Below, one piece after another: positions 151-5,116 of a DNA stretch of 5,116 nt; the first letter of the stretch is position 1, and each line of letters opens with the position of its first letter. A model generated the notes under the pieces. That model made no database searches, was not told the origin of the DNA, and saw only the letters and a list, made by a program, of their open reading frames with translations. This DNA comes from JAUWCW01 sp030609125 [NCBI: Candidatus Rokuibacteriota bacterium]. GTDB taxonomy: Bacteria; JAUVQV01. The stretch is taken from positions 1-5,116 of the forward strand of contig JAUWCW010000175.1 in assembly GCA_030609125.1 (NCBI GenBank), in the 5' to 3' direction. A program made the position numbers and the translations under genes.

Positions 151-1188
151 CTATTCCACGCTGAGATAGTCGCTCAGGCTGACAGCCATGTACTCCACGA
201 TCGGTATGACCCGGGAATACTCCATCCGCGTCGGGCCGATGACGCCAAGCACGCCCAGGACCCGGCCCTCAAGTCCGTAGGGCGCGGTAATGAGACTCAG
301 CTCCTTCATCTCCGGAATCGGCATCTCTTCGCCGATGAAGATCTGGATCCCGTCGGACTTCATGCTCCTGTCCAGGAGGTGCAGGAGCCGACTCTTCTCC
401 TCGATGGCGGTCATGAGCCGCCGCAGCTTGTCGGGACTTGCGAACTCCTGCCAGGCCAGCATGTTCGCTGTCCCTTCCAGGTAGAGGCTCTCCGCCTTCT
501 CCTCCTCGAGCAGGGCCTGCCTTCCGAGGGCGATCGCCGCCTCCAGCAGGCGATCGAACTCCTCCTTGTCGGCGGCCATCCTGTCCAGAAGCTCCGAGCG
601 AACCTCACGAACCGGGCGGGTGGAGAATCTGCTGTTCCAGATCTCCGACATGGCATTCAACTCTCCCTGGCTCCAGTCCTCGGGGAGGTCGAACATCTTG
701 TTCTGGACCAGGCCGTTGTCGGAAACGATAACGGCGAGAACCTTCCGCCGGCCGATCCTTACGAACTGCAGCCTTCTGAACCTGTCGCTGAGAAACTTGG
801 GCCCCACCACGAGGCCGAGCTGGTGGGAGACAGCCGACAGGGTGCGCGACGTCTCCTGGAAAACCTCCTCCACCGAGCGGTGCCTCTCCGCGAATCTCTC
901 CCGGATCTGCCTGATCGCCGTCGCTCGCGGCCGCTCCGTTCGGATCAGCAGGTCCACATAGCAGCGGTAGCCAGGATCGGTGGGGTACCGTCCCGAAGAC
1001 GGGTGAGTCTGGCGCAGAAGTCCCTTCTCCTCCAGGTCGGCCATGACGTTCCTCACCGTGGCGGCACTGAGCTCGCGCTCGAGCTTCCTGGAGATGTAAC
1101 GCGACCCCACGGGCTCTCCCGTGGCGATGTAGTAGTAAACGGTGAGGTAGAGAACGTTCTTCTCCCTCTCCGTAAGCTCCAGATCCAT
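151..1188 (-). CDS. hrcA: Heat-inducible transcription repressor HrcA
   Basis: HrcA represses class I heat-shock genes (groESL, dnaK operon) by binding CIRCE operators; GroEL is known to support its activity. The 345-residue product has normal family length. Residues 1-80 form the winged-helix DNA-binding domain, with YIATGEPVGSRYISRKL, the recognition-helix segment SAATVRNVMADLEEKGLL, and the signature SSGRYPTDPGYRCYVD (about 64-79; family consensus SAGRIPTDKGYRFYVD). The central part is GAF-like, with YLEGTANML at 236-244. The C-terminal signature is MKELSLITAPYGLEGRVLG followed by VLGVIGPTRMEYSRVIPIVEYM, about 294-334. The start was set at ATG 1188 because it begins the conserved MDLELTERE segment. 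An in-frame ATG at 1209 adds seven residues and coincides with the predicted transcription start. A TTG at 1245 is also in frame but lies in the promoter -35 box, so it is unlikely. grpE follows directly. Confidence 0.96.
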   Translation of the reverse strand: MDLELTEREKNVLYLTVYYYIATGEPVGSRYISRKLERELSAATVRNVMADLEEKGLLRQTHPSSGRYPTDPGYRCYVDLLIRTERPRATAIRQIRERFAERHRSVEEVFQETSRTLSAVSHQLGLVVGPKFLSDRFRRLQFVRIGRRKVLAVIVSDNGLVQNKMFDLPEDWSQGELNAMSEIWNSRFSTRPVREVRSELLDRMAADKEEFDRLLEAAIALGRQALLEEEKAESLYLEGTANMLAWQEFASPDKLRRLMTAIEEKSRLLHLLDRSMKSDGIQIFIGEEMPIPEMKELSLITAPYGLEGRVLGVLGVIGPTRMEYSRVIPIVEYMAVSLSDYLSVE

Positions 1189-1216
1189 TCCGGTCGTACC
1201 GTCAATCATGGCGAAA

Positions 1217-1245
1217 AAACTAACAGTATCAATGCGTTTTGTCAA
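1217..1245 (-). promoter_or_regulatory. Sigma-70-type promoter for hrcA-grpE
   Basis: The minus strand carries a perfect -35 hexamer TTGACA (1245-1240), a 17-nt spacer, and a weak -10 TAGTTT (1222-1217). The -10 keeps the three most conserved positions of TATAAT (first T, A, last T). The expected transcription start is near 1210, almost on the ATG at 1209 and 21-22 nt before the ATG at 1188. The transcript would therefore be leaderless or have a very short leader. The -35 flank CTTGACA also resembles the sigma-32 -35 consensus CTTGAAA, but no CCCCAT-type -10 sits at the right distance. No CIRCE repeat overlaps it. Confidence 0.5.
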
Positions 1246-1304: not shown

Positions 1305-2585
1305 TCAGGCTTCCGCTGGGGGGGGCCGCATCGACAGGTCCTGCGTCACCTTCCAGAGGAGGCCCTTGATCTTCTGCGGCGAGTAGCGGCTGCGAATCCT
1401 GGGAATTATGGTCGGCTTGGTCACGTTCCCCTCTATCTCGTCCTGCATGATCTCGAAGAAGGCCTGCGAGACCTGCGGGTCGAACTGGCGATAGACGTTG
1501 TCCCAGACTTCCTTCAGGGCTATGTCGAGACCGAGAGCCGGGCGGTACGGCCTGTCGGACGTCATGGCGTCGAAGGCGTCGGCCAGGCTGAGGACCTTCA
1601 TGCCCGTGTTGAGTCCGTCCATCTTGATCCTGTCAGGGTATCCGCTTCCGTTTACCCATTCATGATGGTGGCGTGCGATGAGAGCCACGTCGGGATAGGG
1701 GAACTTGATGTTGGAAAGAATGTCGTAGGAGATGGTGGGATGGCGGTGAATCTGGTCCATTTCCTGCTCGTTCAGGCGGCTCGGCTTGAGAAGGACACTG
1801 TTGTCGATGGCGATCTTGCCGATATCGTGCAGGTGGCTCGCTATGCGGACCGCCGCCACGTGCAGCTTGTTCATTCCAAGCCTCACGGCGATCACTTCGG
1901 CAAAGCAGGCCACCCGCTCCGAGTGGCCCCTGGTGTAGGGGTCCTTGGCGTCGATGGCGGCGCCGAGGGCTTTGATGGTATCGTGATACAGGCCCTCCAG
2001 ATTCCGGAAAAGCTTCTTGTTCTCGGAAGCCTTCCGTCTCAGGGCCTTGTTGCTCGACTCCAGGCTCCGGAAGAGGTCCTGGTTGTGTATCCCTATGGCG
2101 ATGTAATTCGCCATGATGCCGAGCAGGTCGAAATCCTCGACGGTAAACGGCTCGCCGTTGAACTTCCTGCCCAGGGTGATGATCCCGATCAGCTCCCCGC
2201 GGAAGTTCAGCGGCATGATGATCTCTGCCCTGACATCCTCGAAAACCTTGCCGGCCCGTTTCAGAAAGGGAGCCATGCGCACCGGGCTCCCTCCTGCCAC
2301 GACAGCCTTCTTGCGCACTCGGAGCAGTTCCACCATCTTCCCGGTGAGTTGTATCTGCTCGTCCCCGTCCAACACCAATCCCCGGCTGGCTTCCAGACAC
2401 AGCTTCCTCTTCCTGGGATCGAAGAGAAAAAGGGCCCCCTTCGAAACGGGGAGGGAGCCCATAACGCTGAAAAGAGACATCCTCATGTTCTCCTGAAACT
2501 CCTGCTGCGAGCTCAGGACCTCTCCCAGCTCTTCCAGGGTGGCTATGCTGAAGAGAAGCTTCCGGAGAGTCTTTTCGGAACTCAT
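1305..2585 (-). CDS. GAF-HD-GYP protein, predicted cyclic-di-GMP phosphodiesterase
   Basis: HD-GYP enzymes are metal-dependent phosphodiesterases that hydrolyse c-di-GMP, usually to GMP. The 426-residue product has no signal peptide or membrane segment. Residues about 15-170 look like a GAF sensor domain (GALFLFDPRKRKLCLEASRGL, then IIMPLNFRGELIGIITLGRK). A charged helical linker (170-205) precedes the HD-GYP domain, about 205-385. This shows GHSERVA (H221), HLHDIGKIAI (H253, D254, K257), RHP (H282), HHE (H307, H308), GSGYP (313-317) and LADAFDAMTSDRPYR (D336). The metal ligands appear intact. The usual DG before xGYP is NG (N312). A 40-residue tail of unknown role follows. ATG 2585 overlaps the upstream STAS stop as ATGA and has a strong GAGGAGGAG ribosome site, so translation is probably coupled. 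GAF ligand and enzyme activity are not provable here; no GGDEF domain is present. Confidence 0.9.
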   Translation of the reverse strand: MSSEKTLRKLLFSIATLEELGEVLSSQQEFQENMRMSLFSVMGSLPVSKGALFLFDPRKRKLCLEASRGLVLDGDEQIQLTGKMVELLRVRKKAVVAGGSPVRMAPFLKRAGKVFEDVRAEIIMPLNFRGELIGIITLGRKFNGEPFTVEDFDLLGIMANYIAIGIHNQDLFRSLESSNKALRRKASENKKLFRNLEGLYHDTIKALGAAIDAKDPYTRGHSERVACFAEVIAVRLGMNKLHVAAVRIASHLHDIGKIAIDNSVLLKPSRLNEQEMDQIHRHPTISYDILSNIKFPYPDVALIARHHHEWVNGSGYPDRIKMDGLNTGMKVLSLADAFDAMTSDRPYRPALGLDIALKEVWDNVYRQFDPQVSQAFFEIMQDEIEGNVTKPTIIPRIRSRYSPQKIKGLLWKVTQDLSMRPPPAEA

Positions 2586-2941
2586 TTCTCCTCCTCTTCA
2601 TTCTCACCGACGGGAGGAGCCCCCGCCCGGCCTACGAAGGGTACGTGCTTGTGGAGCCCCATGAGCCTGAAGATCTCTTCGTTGACCGGAGTCATCCCGG
2701 TGAAGAAAAGCTTGCCTTGAGCGTCCCTCACATTTTCGATGACACCGATAAGAATGGACACTCCCACGCTGTTGACAAGATCGGTATCGCTGAAGTCGAT
2801 AACAATTCTTCGGCTCTCACCGCCGAGCAGCCTGTCAACTTCCTCCTCGAGCTTCTCTCCGCCGTGGCCGCTGAGATAGCCGCTGACCTTGACTATCGCC
2901 GCATCATGAAGTATTTCAGTCGTCGTCTCGAACTTTGCCAC
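2582..2941 (-). CDS. STAS-domain protein, anti-anti-sigma factor type (SpoIIAA/RsbV-like)
   Basis: This 119-residue cytoplasmic protein is the size of a single STAS domain. Proteins of this type bind the SpoIIAB/RsbW kinase when unphosphorylated and are released when the kinase phosphorylates a conserved Ser. The fold pattern is clear: IVKVSGYLSGHGGEKLEEEVDRLL, then RRIVIDFSDTDLVNSVGVSILIGVI (about 44-68), then KLFFTGMTPVNEEIFRLMGL (77-96). The switch motif, usually D-S-S/T-G, is N57-S58-V59-G60, so the phosphoacceptor Ser is kept while the preceding Asp is Asn. The C-terminus is acidic (GENEEEEK). The start is GTG 2941, with AAGGAAGGA upstream, inside the end of the kinase gene (26-bp overlap). 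The natural partner is the GHKL domain encoded just upstream. Overlaps on both sides imply one operon with coupled translation. Confidence 0.88.
   Translation of the reverse strand: MAKFETTTEILHDAAIVKVSGYLSGHGGEKLEEEVDRLLGGESRRIVIDFSDTDLVNSVGVSILIGVIENVRDAQGKLFFTGMTPVNEEIFRLMGLHKHVPFVGRAGAPPVGENEEEEK
2588..2596 (-). promoter_or_regulatory. Strong ribosome binding site for the HD-GYP gene inside the STAS gene
   Basis: GAGGAGGAG on the minus strand ends 2 nt before the ATG at 2585; its GAGG core has a 7-nt spacer. It is embedded in the last codons of the STAS gene, where it encodes the acidic tail EEEEK. This and the ATGA stop-start overlap fix the start of the HD-GYP gene. Confidence 0.7.
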
Positions 2942-5116
2942 CGCTTCCTTCCTTTCCAGTCAGGTGTTTCACCATGACGAGCCTCACTCCGTCTTCGCTG
3001 CGGTCGAACTCCACCTCATCCATCAGCTCCTTGATGAGACTCAGCCCCCAGCCCCGCTTCGACATCTCCTTCTTGCCTCGCGCAGGAGCAATTACCTGGG
3101 GAGCAAATCGCCTGCCCCGGTTCTCCACCCGGATGATCAGGCTGCCGCCCTCAACGGTGAAAAAGAGCCGCACCTTTCCCTCCGCCAGCCCGCTGTGCTC
3201 GAAAGCGTTGATGCATGCCTCCACCAGCGCCATTTTTATCCTGCCCGTTTCGTTGGAGTCGAAGTTCATGTTCTCCGCAAGCTGCTCCACCGCCCGCGCC
3301 GCCACAAGCTCCGTCTCGGAGACCATTGGTATGGTCATCTCGAATTCAAGTCTCCGCCCCCTGCGGGCCTTCTCCTCCGGCGCCGGGAGGAGGGTTCCTG
3401 ATTCGGCGCCGATCATGCTCCCCAGCAGTGCCGCCTGGCGCACCGTGGACGAAAGGACCCTCTCCCGTCTGGCCCGCTCCAGAGCCCCCAGCGTGAAGCC
3501 CTCCCGGGAGATGATCCACCTCACCGCCGTCGCTCCCTCCAGTTCTTCTCCCGTCTGCAGGGCGCTCACCCCCCGTACGAACTCGTCCACATCTTCCTCG
3601 CCCACCGCCCCCGCGTCATGAAGCCGCACGAGCCAGCAGACTTTCTTCTCCTTCCCTTCGATTCCCGGCTGCACGGCCCACGCCGCCGCGTCGACCTCAA
3701 CGAGGGGAGGCCCGGAACCGGGACCGACAAAGCCGGAGGCCACGGAGACCACCCGCGGGAGCCGCAGAAGATCTCCAGACCTTCCCAGCCGCTCCAGGAG
3801 CTCGTCGTCCCCCGCGTCGGCTCCGTCCGCCCCCACTCCGCCGCCGGCAAAGAGCGTTTTCGGCACCTGCTGGCCCGACCAGGATTCCAGAAGGGTCCGA
3901 AGCCGCCTCTTCCCCTCCTTCCGAACCTCGCGACGCCTCTCTTCCCCGGCGCACCGCATCTTCTCCGCCGCCACCGAGGCCTCGACGAAAGTGAGACCCC
4001 CTCCGCCCGTCTCCCCCCGGTAGAGACTGAGAATGAAGTCCTTGAAGGTCGGGTTCTCTGTGATCCGCACCCGCGAGCATTCCACCGTCAGCAGCCCCGC
4101 CCGCCTCAGCCCTGCCAGGGCTTCCTCGACCTCCCCCGGCGCCTTGAGCATCGAGGACGACAAACGTTCCACCGCCGGCGCGAGCGGTTCTTCCCTGATG
4201 CAGAAGACGAGCAGCTCCAGCGCCGTCTTTCTCCCGGACAGATCCGGAAAGTACCCGGCCAGGAGGTCGAGCCAGTACCGGTGGACCTCCCCACGGCAAA
4301 CGGTTTCGGCGTACGACCGGTAAAGGACCGCCTCATCGATGTCCCCCCTGCCCGCCAGGCAGCGAACCAGGGCCTCCATGGCGAAAGGCATGCGTCCCGA
4401 GAGCCTCACCGCCTCACCGGTAAGCTCCTCCGTCATCTCCACGCCGCCCACTCTCAAAAGGCTCCGCATCAAGTGGAGTGCGTCTTCCTCCGGAAGGGGC
4501 CGCAGCTCCAGCAGATCGAAAAGTCCCGCCGCCTCACCTCTTCCCAGGAAGGATCCGATCTCTCCGGCAGTCCTCCCGGCAAGAATCATCGGCGCCCGCC
4601 GGGACCGCAGGGCCTCACGGGGCCAGCCGATCAGCTCCGGCGGGCGGTAGTGCGCCAGGTGGGCGAAGTCGTCGATCATGACAAGAACCTTCCACCCCCC
4701 CGCGGCGGCGAAGCGATCCGGAAGAAGGGCCGCCTCCAGCACCGGAGACCTCCCGGACCGGCCCTCCCTCCTGTCCCGGCAGACCTCACGGAGGTACCTT
4801 CCCGCCGCCGTGCCGTCCTCCCGCAGCCGGCTCTCCAGCATCCCCGGTCCCGGCGCCTCCCGCAGGGGCTCCGGGTCCCCCGCGGCGTGCGCGATGTACT
4901 GGGCCGCAAAGGAATCGATGAAGTCGGCGGCGAACTCGTTCACGCTCCACTTAAGCTTCGGCATGGAGTAGTAGAAGGGGAGGATGTCCCCGCCCTCCTG
5001 CCTGAGAGACGATGCGAGCGTTTGCAGCAGCGCCGTCTTTCCCGCCCCCGGGGGGCCCCAGAGCAGCACGCTCCTTCCCCACTCCCGGGCGAGATCGCGC
5101 ACTCTGCGGCGCAGGT
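2916..5116 (-). CDS. Multidomain P-loop ATPase fused to a SpoIIAB/RsbW-type GHKL kinase domain (5' end outside window)
   Basis: The frame is open to the right edge and encodes at least 732 residues, so the true start is probably outside. The GTG at 5102 lies only about 15 residues before Walker A and is likely internal. Numbering from that GTG: Walker A GPPGAGKT (16-23), Walker B VLVMIDDF (139-146), sensor-like ILAGRT (173-178), a helical lid to about 285, and a winged-helix-like segment (290-362) as in STAND/AAA regulatory ATPases. A charged helix (375-405) and a Gly-rich linker follow. Residues 450-555 resemble a PD-(D/E)XK nuclease-like fold lacking its E-x-K pair. Residues 590-715 form the GHKL domain: N box ALVEACINAFEHS (E628, N632), G1 box VENRGRRF, G2 box KRGWGLSLI and LMDEVEF. 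The kinase part should phosphorylate or sequester the STAS protein encoded next, whose start lies inside this gene. The trigger sensed by the ATPase is unknown. No membrane segment is seen. Module calls at both ends are firm; the middle is tentative. Confidence 0.85.
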   Translation of the reverse strand, partial: LRRRVRDLAREWGRSVLLWGPPGAGKTALLQTLASSLRQEGGDILPFYYSMPKLKWSVNEFAADFIDSFAAQYIAHAAGDPEPLREAPGPGMLESRLREDGTAAGRYLREVCRDRREGRSGRSPVLEAALLPDRFAAAGGWKVLVMIDDFAHLAHYRPPELIGWPREALRSRRAPMILAGRTAGEIGSFLGRGEAAGLFDLLELRPLPEEDALHLMRSLLRVGGVEMTEELTGEAVRLSGRMPFAMEALVRCLAGRGDIDEAVLYRSYAETVCRGEVHRYWLDLLAGYFPDLSGRKTALELLVFCIREEPLAPAVERLSSSMLKAPGEVEEALAGLRRAGLLTVECSRVRITENPTFKDFILSLYRGETGGGGLTFVEASVAAEKMRCAGEERRREVRKEGKRRLRTLLESWSGQQVPKTLFAGGGVGADGADAGDDELLERLGRSGDLLRLPRVVSVASGFVGPGSGPPLVEVDAAAWAVQPGIEGKEKKVCWLVRLHDAGAVGEEDVDEFVRGVSALQTGEELEGATAVRWIISREGFTLGALERARRERVLSSTVRQAALLGSMIGAESGTLLPAPEEKARRGRRLEFEMTIPMVSETELVAARAVEQLAENMNFDSNETGRIKMALVEACINAFEHSGLAEGKVRLFFTVEGGSLIIRVENRGRRFAPQVIAPARGKKEMSKRGWGLSLIKELMDEVEFDRSEDGVRLVMVKHLTGKEGSGGKVRDDD
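2942..2954 (-). promoter_or_regulatory. Ribosome binding site for the GTG-started STAS gene
   Basis: Tandem AAGGA units at 2954-2950 and 2950-2946 on the minus strand lie 8 and 4 nt before the GTG at 2941, inside the last codons of the ATPase-kinase gene. No ATG with a comparable site is found nearby, which supports the GTG start and coupled translation of kinase and STAS partner. Confidence 0.55.

Follow-up and report, generated by a model that had tools for sequence, protein, structure and literature searches.

A STAND-like ATPase fused to an RsbW-type GHKL domain beside STAS and c-di-GMP enzyme genes: a candidate partner-switching module

Partner switching is known from sigma factors, and the usual partner switch consists of a small kinase and a partner that control gene transcription; STAND sensors are known from immunity and cell death. 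This study concerns a locus that unites such elements. In the window, namely the whole 5116-bp contig G000:C101 of a draft genome (G000) totaling 2.3 Mb, a STAND-like ATPase and a GHKL domain of the RsbW/SpoIIAB type are encoded by a single gene (hereafter the fused gene), which is followed by a STAS gene and by a gene for a GAF-HD-GYP protein, a probable phosphodiesterase of cyclic di-GMP (c-di-GMP). One conserved gene row joins STAND sensors, partner switching, and c-di-GMP. We consider it moderately probable that this row encodes a partner-switching module for c-di-GMP turnover, in which the GHKL arm is built into a STAND-like sensor protein.

Among the closest described systems, SiaABCD of Pseudomonas aeruginosa is described as a switch in which the kinase SiaB and the phosphatase SiaA set the phosphorylation of SiaC, whose unphosphorylated form binds and activates the cyclase SiaD (PMC8457831, PMC7647112). 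The likeness to the window lies in a partner switch with a c-di-GMP enzyme as its output, whereas SiaA is a PP2C-like protein, with no SpoIIE-type phosphatase turning up at the fused loci; SiaC belongs to DUF1987 and not to Pfam STAS, the kinase is separate, and the output is a cyclase instead of an HD-GYP protein. The window model matched SiaB (6kko) with Z 12.5 (model range 533–716), which is weaker than its match to RsbW. In the same literature, the STAS proteins HsbA of the P. aeruginosa HsbA/HsbD system and BgrV of Sinorhizobium meliloti BgrSTUWV control a diguanylate cyclase, with the phosphorylation state being essential (PMC8457831), and HsbA switching is also treated in PMC5085249; the available text mentions no STAND-like ATPase–kinase fusion, and the targets are cyclases, in contrast to the window. 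An EAL + GGDEF phosphodiesterase that blocks binding between an anti-sigma factor and its sigma factor, as described in PMC13232838, is a different arrangement, and the accessible parts of PMC12805831 and PMC6637768 name partner switches with no HD-GYP target. Within the literature covered, in part and mostly outside subscription journals and preprints, no STAND-fused kinase or HD-GYP-targeting partner switch was found. Partner switches acting on cyclases are therefore already in print, and relative to these sources, the STAND-fused form with HD-GYP is new.

The window resembles the RsbW/RsbV and SpoIIAB/SpoIIAA pairs in the GHKL fold, the STAS fold with its serine position, and the adjacency of the two genes. 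The fold of residues 1–372 is held in common with PABY2304 (2qen), SSO1545 (2fna), NLRs, and CED-4; unlike PABY2304, SSO1545, and STAND proteins, the window protein has an RsbW-type GHKL domain as its output domain.

Architecture and recurrence of the fused protein

The frame of the fused gene was uninterrupted over 732 codons, with its 5' end lost at the contig edge; gene calls throughout are the longest open frames supported by similarity search, with no gene finder. The full protein was modeled by AlphaFold2 (AF2) from a 28-row alignment, with a mean pLDDT of 83.9. In this predicted structure, residues 1–372 matched the archaeal Walker-type ATPases 2qen (Z 22.8) and 2fna (Z 22.5) and the STAND proteins RPP1, a plant NLR (Z 18.9), and CED-4 (Z 16.9), while Pfam placed AAA_22 above its cut-off (28.9 versus 27 bits) and AAA_16 below it (31.6 versus 32.6 bits); the N-terminal ATPase is thus STAND/archaeal-ATPase-like as judged from the model. 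The C-terminal part carried Pfam HATPase_c_2 at residues 605–716 (expectation value, E, 3.6e-20), and the predicted structure of residues 588–719 was close to RsbW 6m37 (Z 19.7, 1.6 Å over 111 residues) and to SpoIIAB (Z about 18; 1tid, Z 18.3). The window GHKL domain scored 48.7 bits against the NCBIfam equivalog PRK04069, below its cut-off of 145.

Between these two parts lies a domain that gave no Pfam match in any of the 23 members checked. When this region was modeled separately, its structural matches included AF1548 (1y88, Z 13.3, root-mean-square deviation 2.4 over 117), 2vld (Z 10.8), Can2 (8bao, Z 10.3), and EndoMS (Z 10.3), which we take to be members of the PD-(D/E)XK fold. The E/D-x-K catalytic motif was found in the aligned strand in none of 25 rows; the modeled middle domain is therefore probably a PD-(D/E)XK fold without the catalytic motif and not a nuclease.

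The sequence-only reading of this window had reported Walker A and B motifs on the N-terminal side, a GHKL domain in the same frame as the P-loop ATPase, and a STAS gene overlapping the fused gene by 26 bp, and all of these were confirmed. That reading had named a frameshift or a join between two genes, or the lack of an AAA/STAND or GHKL fold, as what would overturn it; both folds were recovered in the predicted structure, and homologues elsewhere align along residues 13–732 (for example, L112, from an assembly labeled Deltaproteobacteria), which rules out an assembly join or frameshift. It had overlooked the middle domain and the GAF-HD-GYP gene, which overlaps the STAS gene by 4 bp.

A scan of genome contigs that used the protein alone gave no relative, and an alignment-based scan found at least 227, of which the best 80 were retained for comparison. 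For the phylum of G000, comparison was possible with one further genome, G001 (same order, different family), where the C-terminal part of the fused gene, STAS, and GAF-HD-GYP stand in the gene order of the window; the start of the G001 fused gene probably lies on contig C143 (residues 1–78, 41% identity, E 5.7e-6). Given this conserved order and the full-length homologues in other genomes, the arrangement in the window is more than chance. Within a broad sample of 386 genomes, 20 matched at E 1e-12, with the fused form in G000, G001, G093, and G125; the others matched in the GHKL part alone and mostly had open frames of 146–264 residues. The phylum of G125 (198 genomes sampled) yielded 21 genomes with a match and a fused frame in 20 of them (four with a degenerate GHKL), and the phylum of G093 yielded a fused frame in 4 of 8 genomes. 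In both phyla, the STAND-like ATPase and GHKL share one frame and the middle domain is absent; this recurrence rules out the fusion as a unique oddity. Unfused relatives were mostly 135–160 residues long.

Gene neighborhood and c-di-GMP enzymes

A gene counted as a neighbor if it lay on the same strand no more than 3 kb away, a limit extended to 4.5 kb for GGDEF at the fused loci. The comparison covered 50 fused loci, all from genomes other than that of the window, which is itself not among them. Rows L191, L193, and L211 were dropped as presumed duplicates of L132, L138, and L130, as were L070 (fused gene not visible) and L208 and L212 (GHKL not found), while the near-copies L111/L126 and L123/L127/L144 were kept. 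The STAS genes of L116 and L202 were recognized by translation; for L110 and L118, where a contig ends, the HD-GYP gene was counted on its GAF part only. The L192 contig ends 180 bp downstream. The 53 unfused GHKL genes used for comparison are among the best-scoring ones of the relative scan and not a random sample; two of them, L140 and L171, exceed the length of a bare GHKL protein, and in several cases the locus ends near the gene.

The survey for ATPase-GHKL genes beside STAS genes, which the sequence-only reading had called for, found STAS next to the fused gene at 44 of 50 loci, GAF-HD-GYP at 37, GGDEF just upstream at 24, and a SpoIIE-type phosphatase (PF07228) at none. The unfused genes had STAS nearby in 52 of 53 cases, SpoIIE-type phosphatase in 28, GGDEF in three, and HD-GYP in one (L135). 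Fisher tests of fused against unfused loci gave p 1e-15 for HD-GYP and p 8e-11 for the phosphatase, values that are descriptive only, since related rows are not independent. Since c-di-GMP enzymes occupy this conserved gene row, the module probably sets c-di-GMP and not a sigma factor, which fits the suggestion of the sequence-only reading that the target may not be a sigma factor. G000 contains eight GGDEF matches, so c-di-GMP signaling probably exists there.

The motifs of these enzymes are intact. The HD and GYP motifs of the window protein (HDIGK, HHHEWVNGSGYP) are preserved, and HD[IV]GK and GYP were present in all 38 HD-GYP proteins, the window included, with HP for HH in L116; GG[DE]E was present in 24 of 24 upstream cyclases. 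The four cyclases examined by Pfam (L069, L110, L117, L123) were all PocR-GAF-GGDEF proteins, and in 14 of the 24 cyclase loci, the cyclase gene and the fused gene were separated by 1 bp or overlapped by 11 or 20 bp.

The STAS partner carried Ser (41) or Thr (5) at the acceptor position in all 46 rows, a count that takes in L133 and L135 from loci counted as unfused. All 44 rows with STAS were intact at the positions of GHKL Glu632, Asn636, and Gly690, and all five rows without STAS had a broken GHKL (L136, L203, L204, L206, L207; L192 was left out owing to its contig end). These five rows also had no HD-GYP nearby, and as four of them belong to one clade, they amount to two independent cases. 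The upstream cyclase was retained in L203, L204, and L207 despite the degenerate GHKL, which hints that the cyclase may be the partner of the ATPase half, and STAS and HD-GYP those of the GHKL half.

The N-terminal GAF region of the window HD-GYP protein begins RKLLFSIATLEELGEVLSS, and a window-like GAF N-terminus also occurs in proteins that follow GHKL-STAS pairs and have other outputs, either GGDEF (assigned by Pfam in L168 and by similarity in L170 and L187) or a SpoIIE-type phosphatase (L071 and L074 by Pfam, L072 from the N-terminus only). This recurrence of the GAF region speaks for an action of STAS on the GAF part of the HD-GYP protein. In L168, L170, and L187, from records titled Candidatus Sericytochromatia, the GHKL-STAS pair is unfused and a GGDEF gene lies nearby. 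L071 (8679–10482) and L072 (8532–10425) each hold two divergent STAS/GHKL pairs side by side.

In the mechanism that we propose, the STAND part would sense an input, and the signal would pass, where present, through the linker with the dead nuclease fold. The STAND part would then set whether the C-terminal GHKL domain holds STAS and, in some lineages, phosphorylates it. The freed STAS would dock on the GAF region at the N-terminus of the HD-GYP enzyme, altering c-di-GMP degradation. At loci with a PocR-GAF-GGDEF cyclase gene directly ahead of the fused gene, c-di-GMP synthesis would be set jointly with its breakdown. We infer the phosphorylation of STAS by GHKL and the action of STAS on the phosphodiesterase, together with their binding, the direction of the effect, the input, and the resetting of STAS within the module. 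For the lineages whose records are labeled Nitrospirae and Deltaproteobacteria, such a module is a candidate direct input to a c-di-GMP phosphodiesterase.

Nucleotide-binding sites and competing explanations

The GHKL signature, described as complete by the sequence-only reading, proved to be so only in part. In the window, the N-box (Glu632, Asn636) and the G2 box (RGWGL) are preserved, while in the G1 box Asn665 stands at the position aligned to the Asp of B. subtilis RsbW 6m36 and of SpoIIAB, and the second Gly is replaced by Arg669. Over 51 fused rows, the N-box Glu and Asn were each conserved in 49, and the G1-box position held Asp in 14, Asn in 14 (including the window and G001), Ser in 17, Thr in 3, and other residues in 3. 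In the unfused relatives, by contrast, Asp was present in 62 of 63; the exception, L135 (Asn), begins right at the edge of its contig and is probably a truncated fused gene. The window type thus differs from these relatives in being fused, in often having lost the Asp, and in adjoining c-di-GMP enzymes, where the relatives often have a SpoIIE-type phosphatase nearby. This GHKL subfamily retains the catalytic Glu and the partner Ser/Thr, often without the Asp common to its unfused relatives, so that, as judged from alignment, the STAS partner has kept its phosphorylatable residue while the kinase has often lost a residue of its own.

The Walker A Lys was kept in 38 of the 44 rows showing that site. 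The Lys was replaced in the other six, by Thr or Ser in four rows of the phylum of G093 and by Arg in L138 and G001; P-loop hydrolysis is therefore unlikely to be essential everywhere. The Walker motifs of the window itself are intact. The idea of an NTP-driven sensor, put forward by the sequence-only reading, is weakened by these six rows, among them G001 and all four of one phylum. Those four (L068, L130, L209, L210) also have His at the second acidic residue of Walker B, and STAS and GAF-HD-GYP still adjoin them despite the altered P-loop. Among the 43 rows with both sites visible, seven had both intact, 31 had the Walker A Lys without the Asp, four the Asp without the Lys, and one (L138) neither; G001, pieced together from two contigs, had neither. 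The Asp was missing from all 24 cyclase-bearing rows, and the other 19 divided into 11 with Asp and eight without. A tie between Asp loss and the upstream cyclase is unsupported as a rule, since in three independent pairs the trait followed in one and did not differ in two (sign test, p 1).

The strongest competitor holds that the GHKL domain is a pseudokinase that merely holds STAS, with the switch lying in the nucleotide state at the STAND P-loop and not in phosphorylation; we regard this as possible but doubtful. The loss of the G1-box Asp from 37 of the 51 fused rows, compared with one of 63 unfused, the frequent retention of the Walker A Lys, and the lack of a SpoIIE-type phosphatase at every fused locus all speak for it. 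The near-universal N-box Glu and Asn and the invariable Ser/Thr of STAS argue the other way, as do one clade with a dead P-loop and an intact G1 Asp and the seven rows in which both sites are intact. The kinase role proposed by the sequence-only reading is weakened by the loss of the Asp.

Along similar lines, we suggest tentatively, as one of the less likely outcomes, that these proteins form a distinct class, in which a STAND sensor carries a GHKL "holder" with a drifted nucleotide site, and in which the sensor, and not a phosphatase, sets the STAS messenger that in turn sets c-di-GMP breakdown and, with a neighboring cyclase, synthesis. If so, the change of Asp to Asn, Ser, or Thr may reflect the binding of another nucleotide or of none, and the class would constitute a pathway from STAND sensing to c-di-GMP that has no SpoIIE-type phosphatase.

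A conventional anti-sigma/anti-anti-sigma pair, in which GHKL would hold a sigma factor encoded elsewhere, STAS would free it, and HD-GYP would be a chance neighbor, seems to us rather improbable. RsbW/SpoIIAB-type domains classically bind sigma factors, the top fold and profile matches of the window domain are RsbW and SpoIIAB, and 13 of the 50 fused loci have no HD-GYP. These points are countered by the GAF-HD-GYP gene that follows at the remaining 37 and by the absence of PF07228 from G000, G001, and G093 (G125 has one match). The latter result agrees with the sequence-only reading, which had seen no PP2C phosphatase or sigma factor in the window; the analysis included no search for sigma factors as such. 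Further, the fused gene was the top HATPase_c_2 match in G000, G001, G093, and G125, with 63.6–89 bits against 26.3–35.6 for the next and a lead of at least 29 bits. Together with the lack of PF07228 in the first three genomes, this makes a hidden classical sigma switch unlikely.

Despite the fusion of STAND-like and PD-(D/E)XK folds in one protein, an Avs-like anti-phage STAND system with a nuclease-fold effector is very improbable, given the missing E/D-x-K motif, the PADLOC matches of the window protein that are limited to the P-loop region (best E 5.6e-5), and the conserved operon with c-di-GMP enzymes.

Several observations weigh against the partner-switching module for c-di-GMP that we favor. 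Gene order is not physical contact, and the window contig ends within the fused gene, so the gene upstream of it lies outside view. With a non-Asp G1 box, Asn in the window, ATP binding and kinase activity are doubtful in the rows concerned, to the extent that alignment can tell. Of the 13 fused genes with no HD-GYP seen nearby, seven have STAS and an intact GHKL, and the joint loss of GHKL and STAS rests on two lineages. The search for phosphatases in G000, G001, and G093 was for PF07228, with other phosphatase families not searched, and the same three genomes contain several weaker, unassigned HATPase_c_2 matches above the Pfam cut-off. Concerning the GAF region, STAS or GHKL was present in the fetched flanks of 11 of the best 30 GAF-match loci, the window and G001 included, and of 38 HD-GYP proteins only 16 fitted a short hand-written pattern of the GAF leader; we therefore claim a GAF resemblance and no motif.

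Feature coordinates and neighboring genes

Table 1. Features of the window, with positions on the 5116-bp contig.
Feature	Position	Strand	Evidence or remark
Fused gene: STAND-like ATPase + PD-(D/E)XK-fold domain + GHKL	2916..5114	minus	732 codons, start beyond contig end
STAND/archaeal-type ATPase region, residues 1–372	3999..5114	minus	AF2 model; 2qen, 2fna; Pfam AAA_16/AAA_22
Walker A GPPGAGKT, residues 20–27	5034..5057	minus	sequence motif
Walker B VMIDD, residues 145–149	4668..4682	minus	sequence motif
PD-(D/E)XK nuclease-fold domain, residues 374–567	3414..3995	minus	separate AF2 model, pLDDT 85.8
RsbW/SpoIIAB-type GHKL domain, residues 588–719	2958..3353	minus	HATPase_c_2; 6m37 Z 19.7
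N-box EACIN (Glu632, Asn636), intact	3207..3221	minus	alignment
Asn665 at G1-box Asp position of unfused relatives (Asp presumed adenine contact)	3120..3122	minus	alignment
G2 box RGWGL, residues 687–691, intact	3042..3056	minus	alignment
STAS gene, anti-anti-sigma type	2582..2941	minus	119 residues, GTG start; Pfam STAS (PF01740) E 9.3e-14
STAS Ser58, aligned to SpoIIAA serine (Ala in 1tid_B chain)	2768..2770	minus	alignment
GAF-HD-GYP gene, probable c-di-GMP phosphodiesterase	1305..2585	minus	Pfam HD_5 E 1.4e-33, GAF_3 E 8.2e-7
hrcA, context only, not claimed as switch part	151..1245	minus	TIGR00331 E 6.6e-93

A plasmid origin of the window was considered and set aside, as a tblastn search against the plasmid collection gave no hit.

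Upstream of the fused gene, G001 (contig C143, L019:307–909) has a gene for a 200-residue protein, the end of which overlaps the fused gene start; this protein has a winged-helix C-terminus and an N-terminus that is STAS-like by eye and not by Pfam, and no homologue of this winged helix-turn-helix gene was found in G000 at E 0.01. In G000, contig C336 (L214:76–2106, minus strand) carries a 676-residue PocR-GAF-GGDEF gene that ends 75 bp from the contig end and whose product is 33% identical over 663 residues to the operon cyclase of L110. Its orientation fits a place ahead of the fused gene of the window, with no sequence linking the two, and neither C336 nor C330 shares an exact overlap of at least 15 bases with the window end.

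Downstream, hrcA follows the GAF-HD-GYP gene at 59 bp. The same gene directly follows the HD-GYP gene in G001 (L009:2522–4155; hrcA E 2.7e-87), where it is succeeded by grpE, and this adjacency may point to a connection with the heat-shock operon within the phylum.

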